This document shows, piece after piece, positions 20-36,027 of a stretch of DNA of 41,966 bases. Each line of letters opens with the position of its first letter. The first letter of the stretch is position 1. The notes under the pieces were generated by a model. The model was not told where the DNA came from. It searched no databases and saw only the letters and a program-made list of their open reading frames with translations. The stretch comes from Methanobacteriota archaeon. Lineage in GTDB: Archaea > Thermoplasmatota > E2 > JACPAO01 > JAHWKR01. The stretch covers positions 1 to 41,966 of the forward strand of contig JAHWKR010000028.1 in NCBI GenBank assembly GCA_019347805.1, written 5' to 3'. Position numbers and translations under genes: made by a program.

Positions 20-161
20 CCCCGGGTTTTGACGTGGAAAAGCTCACATGCCTGTGAACGCGCTCCCTCCACCCCTACAGATAAAAGACCCCGCCCCCTC
101 CAGCGCATCGTCCGGCCCCACGGACCGTCCAGTGGGCACCCGGTCGACCGAGTGAGGCCGA

Positions 162-1958
162 ATGGGATCCGCGCTCACCCAGCTCACGGTGGACGAGAAG
201 GTCCTGCTGCATCTTTCCCAGTTCATCTTCGACCCGGACGACCGCGAGGCGCCCCTCGAGGCGACGCAGGACGGCATCGCCGAGGCGGCCGGCATCAACG
301 CGACGCATGTCCCGCGTTCGGTCCAGAACCTGCGCAAGAAGGACCTCGTCGTCGAACACAAGCTCCAGGTGGCCGGCAGCGACCGCCGCCGAAAGGCGTA
401 CCGTCCGACCGAGGAAGGCTACCGCCGCGCGCACGAGATCAAGGACCGTCTGCTCGATGCCGAGGTGGTCGTGGTGGACGACACGGGGACGGTGCGGCGC
501 ACGACGCTGCGCGACCTGCATGGCAGCAACGTATCGACCGCCCAAGTGCTCGCCTCGGCGCTCGCCGCCGCACCCGTCCCGCTCCTCGATCTCTCCTCTG
601 GGCGCATCACGCCGAGCCCGTCGCCGCTCTCGGCGAGCCTCTACAACAAGGTCCCGCAGGTGTCCGACTTCGTCGGCCGCAAGAAAGAGCTGAAGCGGCT
701 GACGACCGCCCTCAAGGACCCTCAGGTGCGTCTCGTCGTCGTGACCGGCATCGCCGGCATCGGCAAGACCACGCTGGTCGCCAAGGCGCTCGAGAAGGTG
801 CGCCGCGTACCGACCTTCTGGTATCGATTGCATGAATGGGAGACACTCCGCAACCTCGGCTTCGTCATGGCCGAGTTCCTGTCGCGGCTCGACCGCAACG
901 GCCTCAAGGCGTACATGGAAGGGCAACTGGAGCATGATGTCGCGACCGCGTACGAGATCGTCCAGAAGGACCTGGAGGGGGTCGAGGCGGTCGTGGTGCT
1001 CGACGACTTCGACAAGGCGCCGCGCAGTTTCCTCGGACTCATCCGCTCCTTTCTGCCGCATCTCGACCGCTTCACCGGCATCACGTTCGTCGTCGTGACC
1101 CGCGCCGCCATCCCCTTCTTCTCCCAGACCGACCGGGTCGAGGGCCGTGTCGCCGAGATCGTCGTCGAGGGGCTCCCGGAGGAGGACGCCCGGCGGCTCG
1201 TCCCGAGCCGGCTCGACAAGGAGCGCGCCGCCGAGGTGTGCCGCATGACCGAAGGCCACCCGCTTCTCCTCAAACTCTTCGGCACCACCGAGGAGAGCGG
1301 CCCCGAGGAGGACGTCGAAGGGCGGTTCGTCCACAGCGAAGGCGTCCACCGGTTCCTCACCGAGGAGATCCTGTCCAGCCTGTCACAGTCCGAGCGCCGG
1401 GCGCTCGAGGCGGCAAGCGTCCACCGCGCCCCCATCCCACCTGAGGTGCTCTTCGTCGACACCGAGGTGGACCATGACGTCATCGACGCGCTCCGGCGCC
1501 GTCTTTTGCTGCGCTCCGTGGGCGGACGCTTCATCGAACTCGTCGATTTCGTGCGCGAGTTCGTCTACCAGCGGATGCGCCCCGAGGCGCGACGCGACGC
1601 CCACCTGGCGGCGAGCCGTGCCGTCGAGGACGCCGGGATGCCGTGGTCGGGCTGGATGGTCGCCCAACACCTCCTTGCCGCAGGCGAGGCGGAGCAGGCC
1701 GCGGACGTGCTTCTATCCCGCGCAGATCGCTATCTGGAGGCGGGCAAGACGGAGGAGCTCGCCAGCGTCCTCCGCGACCTGGACGGTGCGACCGGCATCG
1801 CGGACGGGACGCGGCGCCGTCTCGCCGAGCTCCGGGCGGTGGTCTATGAGCGCGCCGGCGACCCGCGGCGGGCCGCCGAGTGGCGACGGCGCGCAGGAGG
1901 GGAAGAGACGGACGTCGCGGTCGAGGACGCGACACCGGTGCGGCGGGGTCGGGCCTGA
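162..1958 (+). CDS. winged-helix / P-loop ATPase (STAND-like) regulator
   Basis: 598 residues. Residues about 10-95 look like a MarR/ArsR-type winged helix, with a helix-turn-helix followed by a basic wing. Residues about 165-450 form a P-loop ATPase: VGRKKEL at 171-177, Walker A GIAGIGKTT near 196-204, and a Walker B-like VVVLDDFD near residue 280. The C-terminal third is helical and alanine/arginine-rich, resembling the TPR-like sensor arm of STAND ATPases. This architecture suggests a signal-responsive transcription regulator whose ATPase acts as a switch; the ligand and targets are unknown. A TATA-like element (GATAAAAG, about 80-87) would give a leader of about 50 nt. The gene stands alone, about 150 nt before the respiratory operon, so a regulatory link is only possible. 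An AAA+ or Orc/Cdc6-like reading is less likely. Confidence 0.8.
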   Translation: MGSALTQLTVDEKVLLHLSQFIFDPDDREAPLEATQDGIAEAAGINATHVPRSVQNLRKKDLVVEHKLQVAGSDRRRKAYRPTEEGYRRAHEIKDRLLDAEVVVVDDTGTVRRTTLRDLHGSNVSTAQVLASALAAAPVPLLDLSSGRITPSPSPLSASLYNKVPQVSDFVGRKKELKRLTTALKDPQVRLVVVTGIAGIGKTTLVAKALEKVRRVPTFWYRLHEWETLRNLGFVMAEFLSRLDRNGLKAYMEGQLEHDVATAYEIVQKDLEGVEAVVVLDDFDKAPRSFLGLIRSFLPHLDRFTGITFVVVTRAAIPFFSQTDRVEGRVAEIVVEGLPEEDARRLVPSRLDKERAAEVCRMTEGHPLLLKLFGTTEESGPEEDVEGRFVHSEGVHRFLTEEILSSLSQSERRALEAASVHRAPIPPEVLFVDTEVDHDVIDALRRRLLLRSVGGRFIELVDFVREFVYQRMRPEARRDAHLAASRAVEDAGMPWSGWMVAQHLLAAGEAEQAADVLLSRADRYLEAGKTEELASVLRDLDGATGIADGTRRRLAELRAVVYERAGDPRRAAEWRRRAGGEETDVAVEDATPVRRGRA

Positions 1959-2892: not shown

Positions 2893-3222
2893 ATGGCCAA
2901 GGAAATGGGCGACATCGTCCGCTGGGAACCCGCCTCACAGCCGAAGTGGGCGGCCGGCATCATTTTCGTCCTCATGATCGTCGTCCTCGTGAACTCGGTC
3001 CTCTTCGTGACAGGCCTCGCCCTCGGCTGGAACGACCCCGTGCACGGGTACTCCGACAACCCTGTGAGCCAAGAGGACCTCATGCTCTGGCTCTCCAACG
3101 CCTTCCTGGGCGTCGCGCTCATCATCTCGCTCTACCGCCGCTTCTTCACCGAGGACATCCTGGTGGTCAAGAAGCGGCACCCGAAGTACGAGGATTTCCT
3201 CGAGAAGTACGATATCGAATAA
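2893..3222 (+). CDS. small two-helix membrane protein of the bc operon
   Basis: 109 residues. Two transmembrane segments are visible (about residues 19-43 and 65-83), separated by a short polar loop and followed by a charged tail that includes YRRFFTEDILVVKKRHP. I do not recognise a family. It sits 14 nt after the Reeler-like gene and 10 nt before the Rieske gene, so co-transcription is near certain. A small structural subunit of the quinol-oxidising complex is the most economical reading. No heme- or metal-binding motif is visible: there are no cysteines and only two isolated histidines. Confidence 0.8.
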   Translation: MAKEMGDIVRWEPASQPKWAAGIIFVLMIVVLVNSVLFVTGLALGWNDPVHGYSDNPVSQEDLMLWLSNAFLGVALIISLYRRFFTEDILVVKKRHPKYEDFLEKYDIE

Positions 3223-3232
3223 GGATGGTCAC

Positions 3233-4075
3233 ATGGTCGACCCCAAGGACCTCGTCGAAGAGCCGCCCGAAGAAGAGGGCATCGACCGCCGCAGTTTCGT
3301 CAAGGGCTGCCTCGGCGCTGCCACCATCGGCGCCGTCGGTGCCGCGGGCTTCGGGCTGTTCAAGCAGGTCGCGGTCGTCAAGGAGACCACGACCCGGTTC
3401 ATCGAATATTTCGGCGCCAAGGTCCTCACCGGCAGTCCTGCCCCCCGCGGCCTGCCCTACATCCCCCTGGCACTGGACGAGGACGGCGAGACGATCATCG
3501 GCGTGCCCGAACACCTCGACTGGTACCGGTTCTGCGCCCATGAGCAGGCGCCCGGCCTCGCCAACGAGGGGTTCACGGACGACAACAAGCTCTACGTCAA
3601 CATCACCGAGGACAAGCTGCACGGCGCCACGCAGGACGTCATCGACCAATGGTGGTACCTCGACAAGCGCGACCAGCCCCTCAAGATGCGCGACTTCATC
3701 GGCCGTGACGTCGACACCGGTGCCCCGTTCCGCTGGCGCTCCGAGGGCCAACGCGGCAACGACATGGTGACCGGCATCATCCTGCTCCTCGACCGCGAGC
3801 GCGTCAAGGCCAAACCGGAGCTCGAGGAGTTCGCCATCATGGACGAGCGCCTCGGGGACGGGGTCCTCGTCGCGTTCAACTCGTTCTGCACGCATTTCTG
3901 TTGCGTCCCCGGCTACCACGAGGACACGACGGCCGAGAAGTATGACGCCTGGGACAAGATCTTCTGCACGTGCCACAACTCCCGGTACGACCCGTACGAG
4001 ATCGTGGACTACGACTTCACCCTCGTCCTCGGGACCGAGGCGGAGAAGGCCGGCGGCGGCGGTGGAGGCCACTAG
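3233..4075 (+). CDS. Rieske [2Fe-2S] protein of the cytochrome b complex
   Basis: 280 residues. A twin-arginine sequence (IDRRSFVKG, about 17-25) precedes one hydrophobic helix, so the protein is probably TAT-exported and N-terminally anchored. Cluster ligands are C219/H221 (CTHFCC) and C245/H248 (CTCH), with C224 and C247 as the expected disulfide. An extra cysteine, C223, occupies the position that is glycine in classical CTHLGC proteins. The protein would carry electrons from quinol bound at cytochrome b to a soluble acceptor, plausibly one of the cupredoxins encoded 2.4-4 kb downstream. The ATG at 3233 follows a purine-rich AAGGATGG and lies 10 nt after the previous stop. Two further Rieske paralogues lie at 34.4-36.0 kb; the one at 35209-36027 is the closer match. 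Confidence 0.93.
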   Translation: MVDPKDLVEEPPEEEGIDRRSFVKGCLGAATIGAVGAAGFGLFKQVAVVKETTTRFIEYFGAKVLTGSPAPRGLPYIPLALDEDGETIIGVPEHLDWYRFCAHEQAPGLANEGFTDDNKLYVNITEDKLHGATQDVIDQWWYLDKRDQPLKMRDFIGRDVDTGAPFRWRSEGQRGNDMVTGIILLLDRERVKAKPELEEFAIMDERLGDGVLVAFNSFCTHFCCVPGYHEDTTAEKYDAWDKIFCTCHNSRYDPYEIVDYDFTLVLGTEAEKAGGGGGGH

Positions 4076-4077
4076 GG

Positions 4078-4908
4078 ATGGCGAAACAGGGAGGTCCCCG
4101 GCCCGGCGCACGCGCCTACGACACCGCCCGCACCGGCAAGGGTCAGGCCACGGGCATGCAGAAGATGAACCTCCGACTGTGGGCCTGGCTCGAGGACCGG
4201 TTCCTCTTCCGCCAGTTCCGCCGCCACTACCAGGAGTTCATGCTGCGCATCAACATGCAGATGCCGGTGAGCCACACGGAGCGCTACAACCTGCGCGTCA
4301 TCTGGTACTGGTATCCCCTCTACACGCTCGGCTCACTGGCGCTCCTGTCCTTCGTGACGGCGACCATCTCCGGCATCCTCCTTGCGCTCTACTACGTCCC
4401 CTCCATCGCCGTGCGGACCCTGCCGCCGTACGGCGAACTCTCGACCGAGGCATGGTATTCGGTCGCGGTGACGATCACACAAGAGATCCCGTTCGGGTTC
4501 ATGTTGCGTCAACTGCACTTCTGGTCGGCCATGATCATGGTGGCCGCCGTGGTGCTGCATACCGTGCGCATCTACATGACGCAGAGCTACAAGAAACCGC
4601 GCGAGGTCAACTACTTCGTCGGCATCCTGCTCCTTGTGCTCACCCTCGGCCTCGGCTACACCGGCTATCTCCTGCCGTGGTCGCAACTCTCCTTCTGGGC
4701 GGGCCGCATCGGTCTCGAGATGGCCTTGGCCACACCCCTTGTCGGGGAATGGGCCGCGGCGCTCGTCTTCGGCGGCAGCGCGCTCGGCCAGGAGACGCTG
4801 ACCCGCATGCATGTCCTGCACGTCTTCGTCCTGCCGGTCATCACGTTCGGCGTGATGGTGATGCACATCATGATCGTGTGGATCCAGGGAGTGACCGAGC
4901 CCCACTAG
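4078..4908 (+). CDS. cytochrome b N-terminal half (b6 type)
   Basis: 276 residues starting at the ATG 2 nt after the Rieske stop. It has four transmembrane helices. The two heme pairs are H147/H161 (13 residues between) and H248/H263 (14 residues between). The 13/14 spacing is that of cytochrome b6 rather than the 13/13 spacing of bc1 cytochrome b. LPWSQLSFW matches the conserved PWDQxxxW region. There is no cysteine anywhere, so the covalent heme ci of chloroplast b6 is not expected. About 60 charged residues precede the first helix, longer than in typical b6. It forms the quinone-oxidising core together with the next gene, which supplies the C-terminal helices. Context and heme ligands make the assignment firm. 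Confidence 0.95.
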   Translation: MAKQGGPRPGARAYDTARTGKGQATGMQKMNLRLWAWLEDRFLFRQFRRHYQEFMLRINMQMPVSHTERYNLRVIWYWYPLYTLGSLALLSFVTATISGILLALYYVPSIAVRTLPPYGELSTEAWYSVAVTITQEIPFGFMLRQLHFWSAMIMVAAVVLHTVRIYMTQSYKKPREVNYFVGILLLVLTLGLGYTGYLLPWSQLSFWAGRIGLEMALATPLVGEWAAALVFGGSALGQETLTRMHVLHVFVLPVITFGVMVMHIMIVWIQGVTEPH

Positions 4909-4917
4909 GTGGAATCT

Positions 4918-5637
4918 ATGGCGACCACGAAAGAACTCATCCAGGCGTACATGGACGAGGTGGACCGCCTCGAGGAGGAAGCGCGCGCCAAGAAGCGCTT
5001 CCGTGCCGTCGAGGGCTTCCCCTACTGGCCGCACCAGTTCATGCGCGACTCCATCCTCGTGCTGGTCTTCCTCGCCGCCCTGGGCTACATCTCGGCGTTC
5101 ATCCCATACTATCTGGAGACACCGGCCAACCCGTCCGGCCAACCGCTCATCATCCTGCCCGACTGGTACCTGCTATGGTCCTACGGTCTCCTGAAGATCG
5201 CCGTCGACGTCACCATCTTCGGCACCGTCATCATGGAAGGGAAGCTCCTCGGTGTGCTCCTCAACGGCGTCGTCGTCGGCTTCATGGTGATCGTGCCCTT
5301 CATCGCGCGCGGTGCCGCCCGTCGTCCGGTCGAAGCGCCCGCCATGGCCGGCTACGGCGTCTTCGGGATGCTCCTCGGCATCACATTGTCGATCTATTCG
5401 GTCAACAACGTGTTCTACCAACAATGGGGCATATTGGCACAGGACTACTATGTCCAAGCGGGTCTGAACGAGATCTTCTACATCCTCCAGACCGACCTGT
5501 TGTCCATCCTGTCCCTCGTCGTCCCCATCCTCGGGGCGTTCGTCACCTACTACTTCCTGAAGTGGCGGCAGAACATCACGACCGGGCAGACCGGATACGA
5601 AAACAAGCTCTCGGCGAGCTACTACAAGATCCGGTGA
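4918..5637 (+). CDS. cytochrome b C-terminal half (subunit IV-like)
   Basis: 239 residues from the ATG at 4918, which has AGGTGG just upstream; an in-frame GTG at 4909 is less favoured. Several hydrophobic helices follow a charged N-terminus. PDWY at residues 81-84 is the PEWY-type motif of the quinol-oxidation (Qo) site, with Asp in place of Glu. In bc1 complexes this region is fused to the N-terminal half; here the split follows the b6/subunit IV arrangement. It is the last gene of the operon. A perfect 14-bp hairpin begins 16 nt after the stop. The PDWY variant should keep an acidic side chain at the Qo site, though I infer that from family knowledge. Confidence 0.92.
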   Translation: MATTKELIQAYMDEVDRLEEEARAKKRFRAVEGFPYWPHQFMRDSILVLVFLAALGYISAFIPYYLETPANPSGQPLIILPDWYLLWSYGLLKIAVDVTIFGTVIMEGKLLGVLLNGVVVGFMVIVPFIARGAARRPVEAPAMAGYGVFGMLLGITLSIYSVNNVFYQQWGILAQDYYVQAGLNEIFYILQTDLLSILSLVVPILGAFVTYYFLKWRQNITTGQTGYENKLSASYYKIR

Positions 5638-5683: not shown

Positions 5684-5782
5684 TGATCCGCCACAGCTCG
5701 GGGCGCTGCCTTTTTGCACCATCCCCGGCTAGCCCGCCCCGTGCCCCGGGCCGAGACCCGCTCTGGCGACCGCGACGAGGCG

Positions 5783-6313
5783 ATGGAGCGGACACTGTCG
5801 ACCTATCACGAGCCGAGTTGGCGGGACGTCCGCCCGCAGACCTACAAGCGCATCAACCTGGTCTCGAGCATCCTCGGGACGGTGCTGTTCGCGTGGGGGC
5901 TCTGGGACACCTCGCACGCCGAGTTCTGGACGGGCATCCCGCTCCTCGTCATCGGACTCTTCCTGGGCTTGTGGACGGCGGCGCTGCGCATCGAGGGCGC
6001 CCCGGCGCCCCTCTACTCGATGAAGAAGAGCCCCGGTGTGGCCGGCGGGCAGGAGTCATGGATCCCGCAGGTGGTCCATTTCTACACGCGCAAGCGCTGC
6101 TCCATCTGCGACGAGGCGCGCATCCGGCTCGAAAACGACCTCGGAGACGCCCCGGTCACCATCGTGGACCATGACGTCGACGAGGACCCGGCGCTCGAGA
6201 AGCGCTACGGCGACCACGTGCCGGTGGCCGTGCACCAGGGACAGGAGCTCTTCGCGTTGAGTTATGATGCCGAGGCGGTGCGTTCGGTCGCCCGGCGTGC
6301 CCGTACCGGCTGA
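5783..6313 (+). CDS. membrane-anchored glutaredoxin-like thiol protein
   Basis: 176 residues from the ATG at 5783, which has GAGG 5 nt upstream; an in-frame TTG at 5714 is possible but adds an unconserved-looking tail. Two hydrophobic helices (about 24-42 and 50-68) are followed by a compact domain of about 80 residues starting VVHFYTRKRCSICDEA, with CSIC at 106-109. The later cis-proline region reads HVPVAV, as in glutaredoxin/DUF836-type thioredoxin folds. Likely role: thiol-disulfide exchange at the membrane, perhaps in maturation of the Rieske proteins, which carry a disulfide, or of the cupredoxins next door. That link is inferred from position only. Confidence 0.8.
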   Translation: MERTLSTYHEPSWRDVRPQTYKRINLVSSILGTVLFAWGLWDTSHAEFWTGIPLLVIGLFLGLWTAALRIEGAPAPLYSMKKSPGVAGGQESWIPQVVHFYTRKRCSICDEARIRLENDLGDAPVTIVDHDVDEDPALEKRYGDHVPVAVHQGQELFALSYDAEAVRSVARRARTG

Positions 6314-6383: not shown

Positions 6384-6393
6384 GTCTTATAGG
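6384..6393 (+). promoter_or_regulatory. TATA-like element of cupredoxin 1
   Basis: GTCTTATAGG lies about 38 nt before the ATG at 6427 and predicts a start near 6413. The short leader GAGGGAAATCTCCC just before the ATG is partly self-complementary (GGGA/TCCC). Confidence 0.5.
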
Positions 6394-6426: not shown

Positions 6427-6909
6427 ATGCGCATCTCCTACATCACCGCCTTCGTCTGCTTCGCGGTCCTCCTCGTGGCCCCGACGGCCCTTGCCCAGGA
6501 CCCGATCGACTCCAAGAACATGGAGCCCGAGGCCACCTTCGAGCACACCTTCGACCAGGAAGGCACGTGGACCTACGTCTGCAAGTACCACGCCTCGACG
6601 ATGACCGGCGAGATCGTCATCGAGGAAGGCGCCGAGAACGACGGCAGCGTCGAGATCGGCATGACCACCCAGTCCGACGGCGATGTCGCCTGGTACTTCG
6701 TGCACGACGGCCGCGCCGAGCAGGACCTCACCGTGCGCATCACCCCCGGCACGACCGTGACCTGGGTCAACAACGACACCGTCGCCCACACGGTCACCGA
6801 GACCGAGCGCGACTTCGAGGGCGACGGTACGGCCGAAGGACCTGCACCGGGTCTCGGGCTCGTCCTCGTCATCGGCCTCGCGCTCATCGCGCTGCGCCGC
6901 CGCTTCTGA
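6427..6909 (+). CDS. secreted cupredoxin with permuted copper-ligand order (copy 1)
   Basis: 160 residues: signal peptide (1-23, ending ALAQ), extracellular domain, and a C-terminal PGL-hydrophobic-RRR tail (about 141-160) resembling an archaeosortase/PGF-CTERM-type anchor. Type 1 copper motifs are clear but inverted. The Cys-His-Met loop (YVCKYHASTM: C52, H55, M59), normally the last motif of plastocyanin/halocyanin domains, comes first. The N-terminal-type motif TPGTTVTWVNNDTVAHTVT, with H121, comes last. The domain therefore looks circularly permuted. Likely role: small blue-copper electron carrier, possibly accepting electrons from the Rieske/cytochrome b complex. A copy with the same order follows at 7039. 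A partial second domain is the alternative, but all four ligands are present exactly once. Confidence 0.85.
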   Translation: MRISYITAFVCFAVLLVAPTALAQDPIDSKNMEPEATFEHTFDQEGTWTYVCKYHASTMTGEIVIEEGAENDGSVEIGMTTQSDGDVAWYFVHDGRAEQDLTVRITPGTTVTWVNNDTVAHTVTETERDFEGDGTAEGPAPGLGLVLVIGLALIALRRRF

Positions 6910-6910
6910 G

Positions 6911-6966
6911 TTGCCTCTGTCCTTCCTTCTCCTCCCCCCTTCCTTCTGCGCCCACCTGTTTTCTTG
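6911..6966 (+). terminator. polypyrimidine tract after cupredoxin 1
   Basis: A run almost purely of C and T begins 2 nt after the stop (CCTTCCTTCTCCTCCC... then GTTTTCTTGG). U-rich tracts serve as archaeal termination signals, so this is a plausible terminator. No ORF is supported here. Confidence 0.4.
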
Positions 6967-7008
6967 GCATCCTCCGGTCCGTCTCGCGGCCCAGGGGTCA
7001 GCGACACG

Positions 7009-7019
7009 TTGATATATCC
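7009..7019 (+). promoter_or_regulatory. TATA box of cupredoxin 2
   Basis: TTGATATATCC is centred 25 nt before the ATG at 7039, the spacing expected for a leaderless archaeal transcript. It fixes the start codon against longer in-frame extensions. Confidence 0.7.
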
Positions 7020-7038
7020 TGGAAGCCGGGCTCTCTTC

Positions 7039-7521
7039 ATGCGCCTCGAGCGATGCCTCGCCATCCTGCTCCTTGTCGCCCTCGCCACCGTCCCGGCGGC
7101 GCTCGCCCACAGTGGAGATGACGACCATTCCCTCGATTCGCGCGACCTCGAGCGCGGATTCTCCTACAAGTACTGGTTCGAGGAGGCGGGGACGCTCGAA
7201 TACGCCTGCACCTACCATCCCGACGAGATGAGCGGGCGTTTCCTCATCCGCGAAGGCGCACCCTCCGACGGTGTCTTCGTCGACCTCCGGGACACACGCC
7301 TGGTGCACAACGACACCGCGATGCTCTTCCTCGAACTGGAGGTCGCCCCTGACGCCTATGTCGAGTTCGTCAACCACGACCAGGACGTGCACCGCATCGC
7401 CCAGACCCGCTTCACCCCGGTGGGGGCCGAAGAATCATCCTCCGCTTCGCTCCCCCTTGCCCTTGCGGCCGGCGTGCTCGGCCTGGTGCTTTTCCTCGGC
7501 CGCCGCCCCGGCGCCCCATGA
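7039..7521 (+). CDS. secreted cupredoxin with permuted copper-ligand order (copy 2)
   Basis: 160 residues, the same length and layout as copy 1: signal peptide (1-23, ending ALAH), then the Cys-His-Met loop first (YACTYHPDEM: C57, H60, M64), and the second histidine region last (VEFVNHDQDVHRIAQ, probable ligand H118). A C-terminal hydrophobic helix (about 137-154) ends with an RR-containing tail. Overall identity to copy 1 looks low outside the motifs, so the duplication is old or the partners differ. It has its own promoter and is probably leaderless. The histidine before the helix is in a less canonical context than in copy 1, so copper binding is likely but less certain. Confidence 0.8.
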   Translation: MRLERCLAILLLVALATVPAALAHSGDDDHSLDSRDLERGFSYKYWFEEAGTLEYACTYHPDEMSGRFLIREGAPSDGVFVDLRDTRLVHNDTAMLFLELEVAPDAYVEFVNHDQDVHRIAQTRFTPVGAEESSSASLPLALAAGVLGLVLFLGRRPGAP

Positions 7522-14791: not shown

Positions 14792-14995
14792 ATGGCCTCG
14801 GCCGAGACCTTCGTCCTCGTCGCCCTCATCGCGTCCGCCGTCGCGCTGTCGGCCAACGTCCTCTTGTGGATCCCCATCGTAGGCAAGGTGTTCTACCTGG
14901 TCGGGAAGATCCTCCGGGTGGTCGGGTTCATCATCGGACTCATCGACATCTGGGCCATCCTCGCCTGGTACGGCCTTGCCCCCGTGCCGTTCTAG
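14792..14995 (+). CDS. 67-residue two-helix membrane protein
   Basis: 67 residues, almost entirely hydrophobic: helix 1 about 7-29 and helix 2 about 39-61, with a short basic turn (GKVFYLVGKILRVV) between. I recognise no family. The start rests on the TATA-like element about 29 nt upstream. An open frame extends further upstream (to 14615), but that part has a basic, low-complexity translation and lies ahead of the predicted mRNA start. The stop codon overlaps by 4 nt the 3' end of the convergent gene on the other strand. Confidence 0.6.
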   Translation: MASAETFVLVALIASAVALSANVLLWIPIVGKVFYLVGKILRVVGFIIGLIDIWAILAWYGLAPVPF

Positions 14996-15567
14996 TCACT
15001 GCCCAGGAACGTGATCTCGCCCTTCGACGCCAGGCAGACCGCGCCCGAATCCATCTCGTGATGGAACGCGTAGACCCAGACCTGGATGGCCGACGGCGGG
15101 ACCGGCTCCGGGAACGTCAACGAGACCGACCCGCAGCCCTCCGCATGCGGCCGCACAACGTCGATCGGGGACGAGCACGGTCCGTAAAACGTGTCGCAAG
15201 CCACCATGAACGGCCTCTCGCCCAGGGTATCGGTGGCGGTGATCGTCCAGGTCCGATGCTCATGGCCGTCCGCCTCGGCGACCGCATGATAGACACCGAC
15301 GCGGACCACGCCGTCCTCCTCGGGATCGACGGCGCGACAACCGGTCGTCGCGCCGGTGGTGAGCGTGTCGTCGACAGCATCGATGCCCGTCGTCCCGCCC
15401 CACTCGTGCCACTCGGGCGCGCATGGACGCGTCGAGACGGCGCCCGTCCCCTTCATCACGCCGCTCGGCAGGTCGTACTCGAAGGCCGTCGAATGGCCCT
15501 GAACGGCGGGTATTGCGACGAGCGTCCAGACAAGGACGACCACGGCGGATCTGTCTCGGGTGTTCAA
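14992..15567 (-). CDS. small secreted protein of the three-member paralogous family (copy B)
   Basis: 191 residues; signal peptide about 1-24 (ending VQGH). The mature part shares with copy C the run CxxxWxxWxGTTG...TTGCR(A/T)VDP, an internal GCGS/GCGA segment followed by beta-strand-like sequence with VWVY/VFVY, and the tail SGAVC-x-ASKGEITFLGSD. Eight cysteines suggest disulfides. No enzymatic motif is seen. Its ATG overlaps the stop of copy C (ATGA at 15564-15567), so the two are co-translated and arose by tandem duplication. Function unknown; surface adhesion or binding is possible but unsupported. Confidence 0.78.
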   Translation of the reverse strand: MNTRDRSAVVVLVWTLVAIPAVQGHSTAFEYDLPSGVMKGTGAVSTRPCAPEWHEWGGTTGIDAVDDTLTTGATTGCRAVDPEEDGVVRVGVYHAVAEADGHEHRTWTITATDTLGERPFMVACDTFYGPCSSPIDVVRPHAEGCGSVSLTFPEPVPPSAIQVWVYAFHHEMDSGAVCLASKGEITFLGSD

Positions 15568-16208
15568 TCAGAGCCCACCATCGTCACTTCACCGGTCGTA
15601 CCCGCACACACCGCGCCGGTCGACTGATCGAGATGGGTCATGTAGACGAAGACGGTGATCTCGTCCGCCGTCACCGGCACCGGCGAGGTGATCGAGAGAG
15701 CACCGCAGCCCGCGGCGCGCGGGTCCTCGATGTCGTCGTTGTCGTCCCTGCTGCCTTCCGGTCCGTCGCCGCACCAGTTGTCAGAGTCGTCGCGGCCGTC
15801 CTGGTATTCGGTGATGATGCACACCAGGATGTACGGTTGCGTGGGGAGCGTGTCGTCGGCATACACCATCCATTGGCTATGGGCATGACCCGTACCGTCA
15901 TTCGAGGGCGACCCGAGACGGATGCCCTCGCCGCTCGGGTCCACGGTCCGGCACCCGGTCGTCATTCCGAACGAAAGCGCGCCGTCCACGGGTTCGGCGC
16001 CAGTCGTCCCGCTCCAATCCTCCCAGGCCGTGGAGCAGACGGCGGCCGCGAAAGCTGGCGTACCGGGTGCGGCGCCGCTCGGCCCATGGTACGTCTTCGT
16101 CACCGTGTGCGCGAAGGCCACCGGCGACGCCATCAACAGCACGATCATCGCGAGCACGCATCCCTTCCTGCAAAGTCTCGTCCACTTTTCGTCCATCGGG
16201 AACACCAC
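15564..16208 (-). CDS. small secreted protein of the three-member paralogous family (copy C)
   Basis: 214 residues; signal peptide about 1-34 (ending AFAH), with an alternative ATG at 16196 that shortens the n-region. It shares with copy B the CSTAWEDWSGTTG and TTGCRTVDP blocks and the tail TGAVCAGTTGEVTMVGSD, and carries an acidic insertion (about residues 132-160) rich in aspartate with two extra cysteines. First gene of a two-gene operon with copy B. A minus-strand TATA-like CAAAAATAGC (16247-16256) lies about 43 nt upstream. Function unknown. Confidence 0.78.
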   Translation of the reverse strand: MVFPMDEKWTRLCRKGCVLAMIVLLMASPVAFAHTVTKTYHGPSGAAPGTPAFAAAVCSTAWEDWSGTTGAEPVDGALSFGMTTGCRTVDPSGEGIRLGSPSNDGTGHAHSQWMVYADDTLPTQPYILVCIITEYQDGRDDSDNWCGDGPEGSRDDNDDIEDPRAAGCGALSITSPVPVTADEITVFVYMTHLDQSTGAVCAGTTGEVTMVGSD

Positions 16209-35208: not shown

Positions 35209-36027
35209 ATGGCCGTCCCAATGGCTGGCAAAGACGGATCCGAGGACGCGCTCGTGGTGCCAGGTGGAACTGATCCAGATGGCATCGACCGCCGCCGCTT
35301 CGTCAAGACCTGCATGGGCGCCGCCGCCCTCGGTGTCGGCGGGGCCGCAGGCTTCGGGATGTTCAAGCAGGTCGCCGACCTCGGTGACTACATCGTCCGC
35401 CGCGTCGACTATTGGGGCGCAAGCCGCAGCCTGAAAAGTCCCGCTCCCCGGGGGCTCGCGCTCATCCCGGTGCGGGTCGACGCCGACGGCTTCGTCGCGG
35501 GGGTCCCCGAGCATCTGGACTGGTATCGTTACTGTGGCCACGAACTCTCCCCTGCCCTCTCCGACGTGGGCCACACCGAAGACGACGTCTTCCGCTATTC
35601 CGTCTCGGCCGACAAGCTGCATGAGCTTGAAGCGCCCGCCGAGGTCTACTGGTACCTCGACCGGCTCGACCGGCCGGTCCATGTCGACCACTTCCGCGAC
35701 AAGCCATACGGCACCGGCGCCTCGGTACGCTGGCGCAGCGAAGGACTCCGCGGCGACGACGTCGTCACCGCCTTGGTCCTCAAACTCGACCCGGACGAGA
35801 TCGCCTTCGACGACCTCGACGCCTACATGGAACCCGAACACCACCTCATCGCCTTCATCACCTATTGTACGCACTTCTGCTGCGTCCCGGGATACCAGGA
35901 AGCGCCCGAAGCACGAAAGAAAGGACAATGGGACAAGATCTTCTGCACCTGTCACGGCTCGGTCTTCGACCCCACCGACATCACACGCTACAGTTTCGAC
36001 CTTCGACTGCCCCGCGACGCCGTCTGA
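35209..36027 (+). CDS. Rieske-type [2Fe-2S] protein (paralogue 3)
   Basis: 272 residues; ATG at 35209, with ATG 35221 also possible. Twin-arginine motif IDRRRFVKT (26-34), then one hydrophobic helix. Ligands C220/H222 (CTHFCC) and C246/H249 (CTCH). It resembles the bc-operon copy closely in layout: AGFGxFKQV after the helix, SPAPRGL, VPEHLDWYR, and VPGYxE after the first ligand motif. It is likely a gene duplicate of that copy and may replace it under other conditions. It begins 51 nt after paralogue 2 with only a weak AT element upstream, so the two are probably co-transcribed with rio1. Confidence 0.92.
   Translation: MAVPMAGKDGSEDALVVPGGTDPDGIDRRRFVKTCMGAAALGVGGAAGFGMFKQVADLGDYIVRRVDYWGASRSLKSPAPRGLALIPVRVDADGFVAGVPEHLDWYRYCGHELSPALSDVGHTEDDVFRYSVSADKLHELEAPAEVYWYLDRLDRPVHVDHFRDKPYGTGASVRWRSEGLRGDDVVTALVLKLDPDEIAFDDLDAYMEPEHHLIAFITYCTHFCCVPGYQEAPEARKKGQWDKIFCTCHGSVFDPTDITRYSFDLRLPRDAV

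Follow-up and report, generated by a model that had tools for sequence, protein, structure and literature searches.

Tandem archaeal genes encode plastocyanin-type cupredoxins with their two halves in reversed order

The window analysed here (41,966 nucleotides, contig JAHWKR010000028.1, from an archaeon of the phylum Thermoplasmatota) carries two small cupredoxin genes downstream of genes for a Rieske/cytochrome b (bc) complex. All of the genes in this paragraph lie on the plus strand. The Rieske iron-sulfur protein, the probable electron donor side (3233..4075; PF00355, 1.4e-4, over the cut-off), is followed by the N-terminal part of cytochrome b (3970..4908; PF00033, 2.3e-36), for which the start codon is uncertain and the listed reading frame overlaps the Rieske gene, and by the C-terminal part (4909..5637; PF00032, 1.5e-7). 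A membrane-anchored glutaredoxin-like protein (5714..6313; PF05768, 4.1e-10) is encoded between the bc genes and the first cupredoxin gene, P1 (6427..6909, 160 aa), which was assigned from the open reading frame list, swapped matches to PF00127 and 1bxu, and an AlphaFold2 model. The second gene, P2 (7039..7521, 160 aa counted from the ATG at 7039), was assigned from an AlphaFold2 model and its identity to P1. By eye, each ATG is preceded by its own TATA-like box (TTATAG near 6385 for P1, TATATA near 7011 for P2), so the two genes may be separate transcription units. Their GC values at the three codon positions are those usual for genes in this genome. Upstream of the Rieske gene lie genes for a Reeler-like secreted protein (2075-2878; below the cut-off) and a DUF7318 membrane protein (2893-3222), which may belong to the archaeal bc complex as additional components.

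P1 and P2 each consist of one domain of about 100 residues between an N-terminal and a C-terminal hydrophobic segment. P1 begins with a predicted signal peptide (residues 1-23, ending ALA; 6427..6495), based on a hydrophobic segment at residues 1-24 and a cleavage site read from the sequence. The first half of its domain is the one that normally comes second, with strands 6-7, the Cys52-x2-His55-x3-Met59 loop and strand 8 (6511..6624; C-half model, 61 bits). The normally first half follows, with strands 1-2-3, His121 (codon 6787-6789) and strand 4 (6649..6810; N-half model, 58 bits). Hydropathy places a C-terminal anchor at residues 138-160 (6838..6906), where the hydrophobic segment is followed by basic residues (an Arg-Arg-Arg tail). 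P2 has the same layout: a predicted signal peptide (residues 1-23, 7039..7107; hydrophobic segment 1-25), a first half with Cys57-x2-His60-x3-Met64 (7129..7254; C-half model, 54 bits), a second half with His118 at 7390-7392 and His113 also nearby (7267..7410; N-half model, 49 bits, a score that leans in favour of P2 since the model was trained partly on it) and a C-terminal anchor by hydropathy (residues 135-155, 7441..7503). The half models include permuted members, which biases their scores on those members, and we therefore take the order of the halves, not the score, as the result. Along the chain, the ligands run C52, H55, M59 and then H121 in P1, and C57, H60, M64 and then H118, with H113 close by, in P2. 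The first-pass annotation of this DNA had described this ligand order at these residues, with H118 as a probable ligand, between a signal peptide and a C-terminal anchor, and each of these features was found in place.

Several lines of sequence evidence show that both genes encode a plastocyanin-type cupredoxin with its halves in reversed order. PF00127 (Copper-bind) matches P1 in two separate stretches (E 8.2e-8, 33 bits against a cut-off of 21.2). In a single-sequence search of the PDB, the cyanobacterial plastocyanin 1bxu matched P1 at 1.7e-7 in two swapped pieces, residues 32-66 of P1 aligning with 56-91 of the 1bxu chain and residues 99-124 with 17-42. A profile of the permuted family gave the same exchange against amicyanin, with query positions 6-42 on chain positions 69-105 and 47-86 on 16-55. 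Among the 60 PDB chains listed, the best stretch was always the early part of the profile, and in the shorter single-domain chains it fell late, as in the normal order.

We then scored every rotation of each protein against a profile of 13 normal-order cupredoxins. In the native order, one half only scores against this profile (33-48 bits). Rotating P1 at the expected junction raised its score from 42.1 to 73.8 bits, with the whole domain matched, and five homologues described below reached whole-domain scores of 61.6 (L009), 73.1 (L012), 69.2 (L071), 73.1 (L072) and 73.0 bits (L073) after rotation. The gain for P2 was small (32.6 to 38.1 bits). The half-domain models found one C match followed by one N match in each of P1 and P2, and no additional half-domain in open frames of at least 90 aa on either strand within about 1.5 kb on each side of the pair. 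Together, the exchange of halves relative to solved cupredoxins, the effect of rotation at the junction and independent homologues elsewhere in the Thermoplasmatota support the initial proposal of a circular permutation with each half present once per protein. On this evidence, P1 is very probably a circularly permuted cupredoxin.

P2 falls below P1 on every measure used. Its own PF00127 match is weak (E 0.11, 13.4 bits, under the cut-off), so its family assignment relies mainly on its 31-32% identity to P1, and its late half is far more diverged. P2, or perhaps the whole family, might be a degenerate leftover that has lost copper binding; the long branch of P2 in the domain tree (1.85), its odd composition there, its weak Pfam match and weak model, and the loss of Met or Cys in some family members all fit this reading. 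However, P2 retains four ligands, a signal peptide and an anchor at this level of identity to P1, and P1 and three other stand-alone members have complete ligands. GC content at codon positions also looks coding. We consider degeneration very unlikely.

The predicted strand pattern of P1 fits a rotated cupredoxin. For AlphaFold2, mature P1 was aligned with P2 and with trimmed halves of normal cupredoxins, each entered as its own row, which left P1 and P2 as the only rows linking both halves. Several mixed alignments placed strands wrongly (A4-A9), and the prediction used A11/A12 only. The best of five P1 models was an all-beta domain (pLDDT 83.8, pTM 0.73; remaining models, pLDDT 62-78) with strands at mature-chain positions 14-19, 23-28, 37-42, 51-58, 64-70, 77-82, 86-92 and 101-106. 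These map to plastocyanin strands in the order S6 S7 [C,H,M] S8 S1 S2 S3 [H] S4. Structure prediction had been proposed as a check for both proteins, and its outcome was divided: P1 gave a confident all-beta model with rotated strand order, and P2 a weaker one (pLDDT 68, pTM 0.58). A Foldseek search, in which alignments follow chain order, gave no PDB match at E<=0.001; this is expected of a permuted chain and proves nothing.

A reversed order could also be accommodated if the halves paired across chains, either in a domain-swapped homodimer or with the His half of P1 joining the Cys-His-Met half of P2, to rebuild sites of the normal order. Two permuted genes in tandem would suit such pairing, and the short linker (5-12 residues between half-model matches in most members, 19 in P1) could serve as a hinge. 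Against this, P1 alone yields a confident single-domain model, and the termini of plastocyanin share one end of the barrel, so that a short linker can close it. As far as our searches show, other genomes have one stand-alone permuted gene each, which means that P1-P2 pairing is not the general case. Cross-chain pairing is, in our view, quite unlikely. For the same reason, that homologues occur as single genes, the idea that P1 and P2 are a split protein of the normal type is unsupported.

To find relatives, we searched 390 Thermoplasmatota genomes with a profile and then established the order of the halves with one model for the N-half and another for the C-half. Counts given here for Thermoplasmatota, and for Thermoproteota and Chloroflexota below, refer to the strong matches listed and are lower bounds. 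The C-then-N order occurs in at least nine of the 390 sampled genomes, so the suggested search for homologues of the same order was fruitful. The domain is stand-alone in six genomes (including the source) and embedded in four, with one genome having both. Stand-alone proteins with a signal peptide and anchor are P1 and P2 (G000), L009 (G002), L012 (G176, Candidatus Thalassarchaeum betae), L071 (G390), L072 (G100) and L073 (G228); L012 and L071 are from marine Poseidoniia. In these genes the signal peptide lies directly before the Cys-His-Met half, and in no homologue of the swapped type was a normal first half found to precede the loop. No relatives were found among viral contigs. Pfam and NCBIfam register the permuted proteins as partial matches only.

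All four ligands are retained in P1, P2, L009, L072 and L073. In L012 (8001-8213) and L071 the loop is longer and Phe takes the place of the axial Met (CTPHPPHEGFPDFTG), as in some high-potential type-1 sites.

The embedded copies are L042 (G002), L087 (G092), L088 (G121), and L092 and L127 (both G118); in L088 the Cys ligand is replaced by Ser. Their hosts are long proteins, most of which have PKD-type domains and a lipoprotein-like start, and one embedded copy clearly interrupts a PKD domain. Pfam reports PKD and partial cupredoxin matches on L042 and L075/L087. PKD-type hosts in four Thermoplasmatota genomes represent a second architecture for the permuted domain. L042 (979-2232, plus strand), L087 (802-2355, minus-strand coordinates), L088, L092 and L127 are large proteins of secreted or lipoprotein-like type, and in most of them the permuted cupredoxin lies within or adjacent to PKD-type domains. 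The C-terminal tail is rich in His in L087, L088 and L092, and rich in Met in L127.

Since the permuted profile also matches tandem cupredoxins, every listed member was tested for half order. In a control of 250 Thermoproteota genomes, 18 of the 18 full-span loci listed were tandems in NCNC or longer order, and in 301 Chloroflexota genomes nearly all listed matches were tandem cupredoxins. These Thermoproteota matches, most of those from Chloroflexota, and L124 (G118), L110 and L111 were discarded by half order as tandem cupredoxins read in the wrong register. A Woesearchaeota match (L013) looked full-length and proved to have the normal order with degraded ligands. One Chloroflexota protein (L152 in G946, 40-1797, plus strand) has Kelch repeats and ends in a C-half and an N-half, in that order, with the Cys ligand missing; this pair may be a permuted cupredoxin domain of independent origin that binds no copper.

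The full-span matches to tandem proteins, among them the 18 Thermoproteota loci and L124, raise the question of whether P1 and P2 reflect an error of assembly or frame, or are one half of an ordinary tandem protein. However, both genes are intact, with the Cys half preceded by a signal peptide and the His half followed by an anchor, and no surplus half was found in nearby open frames on either strand. The same order in at least nine genomes, on differently organised contigs, refutes this reading, to which we give virtually no weight. The first-pass annotation, citing two differently diverged copies in a row, had likewise argued against a sequencing or frame artefact.

P1 and P2 resemble plastocyanin and amicyanin (PF00127; 1bxu, 1aac) in having both halves, a predicted all-beta domain and export. 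Ligand spacing is amicyanin-like, C-x2-H-x2-M in L009, L072 and L073 and C-x2-H-x3-M in P1 and P2. Unlike plastocyanin and amicyanin, P1 and P2 have swapped halves, a C-terminal membrane anchor and new termini between strands 4 and 6. Haloarchaeal halocyanin (TIGR03102) is likewise archaeal and membrane-tethered, with a copper site of the electron-carrier type, and is the best NCBIfam match for P2 and second-best for P1. However, both matches are partial and below the halocyanin threshold (31.7 bits for P1 and 18.4 for P2, against a cut-off of 93.8), and P1 and P2 differ from halocyanin in lacking an N-terminal lipid-attachment Cys as well as in half order. In the tandem multi-cupredoxins of Nitrososphaerales and Chloroflexota, an internal C-half precedes an N-half, which explains their matches to the permuted profile, but they read NCNC with every barrel in normal order.

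Azurin has reportedly been circularly permuted by engineering with its type-1 site kept, showing that a cupredoxin tolerates permutation; that protein is man-made and is said to be opened at a different point from P1 and P2. No natural permuted cupredoxin was described in the literature we searched, a weak negative as subscription journals lie mostly outside it, and this agrees with the earlier remark that no such family is well described. In the cupredoxins, a textbook fold, the ligands follow a fixed order in sequence, and family models and motif searches assume that order. A natural permuted family would provide evolved test cases for how chain order affects folding, metal loading and redox potential. 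It would also represent an electron carrier or copper handler that has been overlooked in archaea, including the abundant marine Poseidoniia.

The likeliest route to the permutation would be tandem duplication of a gene encoding a signal peptide, cupredoxin and anchor. The source genome also has small cupredoxins of normal order, of which L006 (contig C11) has this signal-peptide-plus-anchor layout and could represent the ancestral type. If copy one then lost its first half and copy two its second, the trimmed product would have signal peptide, C-half, N-half and anchor. No duplication intermediate was seen among the proteins examined. In the resulting protein, a linker, short in most members, would connect the old C-terminus (end of strand 8) with the old N-terminus (start of strand 1). 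The new chain ends would lie in the irregular region that separates strands 4 and 6. The position of the new termini may have made insertion into the PKD domain possible. In a domain tree based on few columns, constraining the Thermoplasmatota permuted domains to one clade was not rejected (p-AU 0.565); because these short domains offer too few columns, the tree neither shows nor rejects a single origin.

With bc genes beside P1 and P2, oxidase genes near homologues and a parallel in Candidatus Angelarchaeales, electron carrier is the best-supported role. In the Angelarchaeales, of the same phylum, 23 of 30 complex III loci have a gene for a small blue copper protein next to the Rieske gene; this protein has been posited as the complex III acceptor, a proposed replacement for cytochrome c (PMC9038741). 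The matching passages of that paper, which place these proteins beside Rieske/cytochrome b, make no mention of a permuted order. The source genome has two COX1 genes (haem-copper oxidases) elsewhere than in the window. Among the homologues, L012 of Candidatus Thalassarchaeum betae is directly upstream of a CoxII-like cupredoxin and COX1 gene, and L009 is 1.3 kb from COX2/COX1. We judge that P1 and P2 are probably natural permuted type-1 copper proteins, most likely acting as anchored carriers from the bc complex to a haem-copper oxidase. Each protein would be exported and fold as one barrel, binding a predicted type-1 copper through His121, Cys52, His55 and Met59 (P1 numbering), while the C-terminal helix would tether it outside the membrane. 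Electrons would pass from the adjoining Rieske/cytochrome b complex to the oxidase, the protein replacing cytochrome c. The broader account, of a functional permuted type-1 family with a single Thermoplasmatota origin that serves as a bc-to-oxidase carrier and was also inserted into a PKD domain, is put forward tentatively, and as a whole we think it somewhat doubtful.

The main rival, owing to CopC/CopD neighbours, is that the same permuted fold handles copper, binding Cu in the extracytoplasmic space and passing it on either to CopC/CopD or to the CuA site in cytochrome oxidase. L072 immediately adjoins a CopC-CopD fusion gene and L009 is about 2 kb from another, the two homologues near cytochrome oxidase genes lie where CuA assembly factors are often encoded, and the His-rich or Met-rich tails of embedded relatives also fit. 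However, the copies in the window adjoin the bc complex, not copCD or coxAB, and P1, P2, L009, L072 and L073 have all four ligands (His, Cys, His and Met) that type-1 electron carriers use; dedicated Cu chaperones usually have Met/His or Cys-Cys motifs. Copper handling is, on balance, unlikely, and we prefer the electron carrier role.

Winged-helix regulators of a similar, haloarchaeal-like type (L079, 5526-6280, minus strand; L080, 12129-12872, plus strand) were seen near the permuted gene and CopC-CopD in two genomes of different classes, and a copper-responsive cluster is possible. Within the window, another Rieske-like protein, whose start (DRRRFVKTCMGAAALG) is TAT-like, is encoded at 35209-36027 (plus strand); it resembles the 3233-4075 product by eye, and no cytochrome b is obvious next to it. 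Secreted proteins that look alike are encoded by two neighbouring genes (14992-15567 and 15564-16208, both minus strand), each with a TTGCR motif, and a third protein near P2 (8411-8926, minus strand) is possibly similar to this pair.
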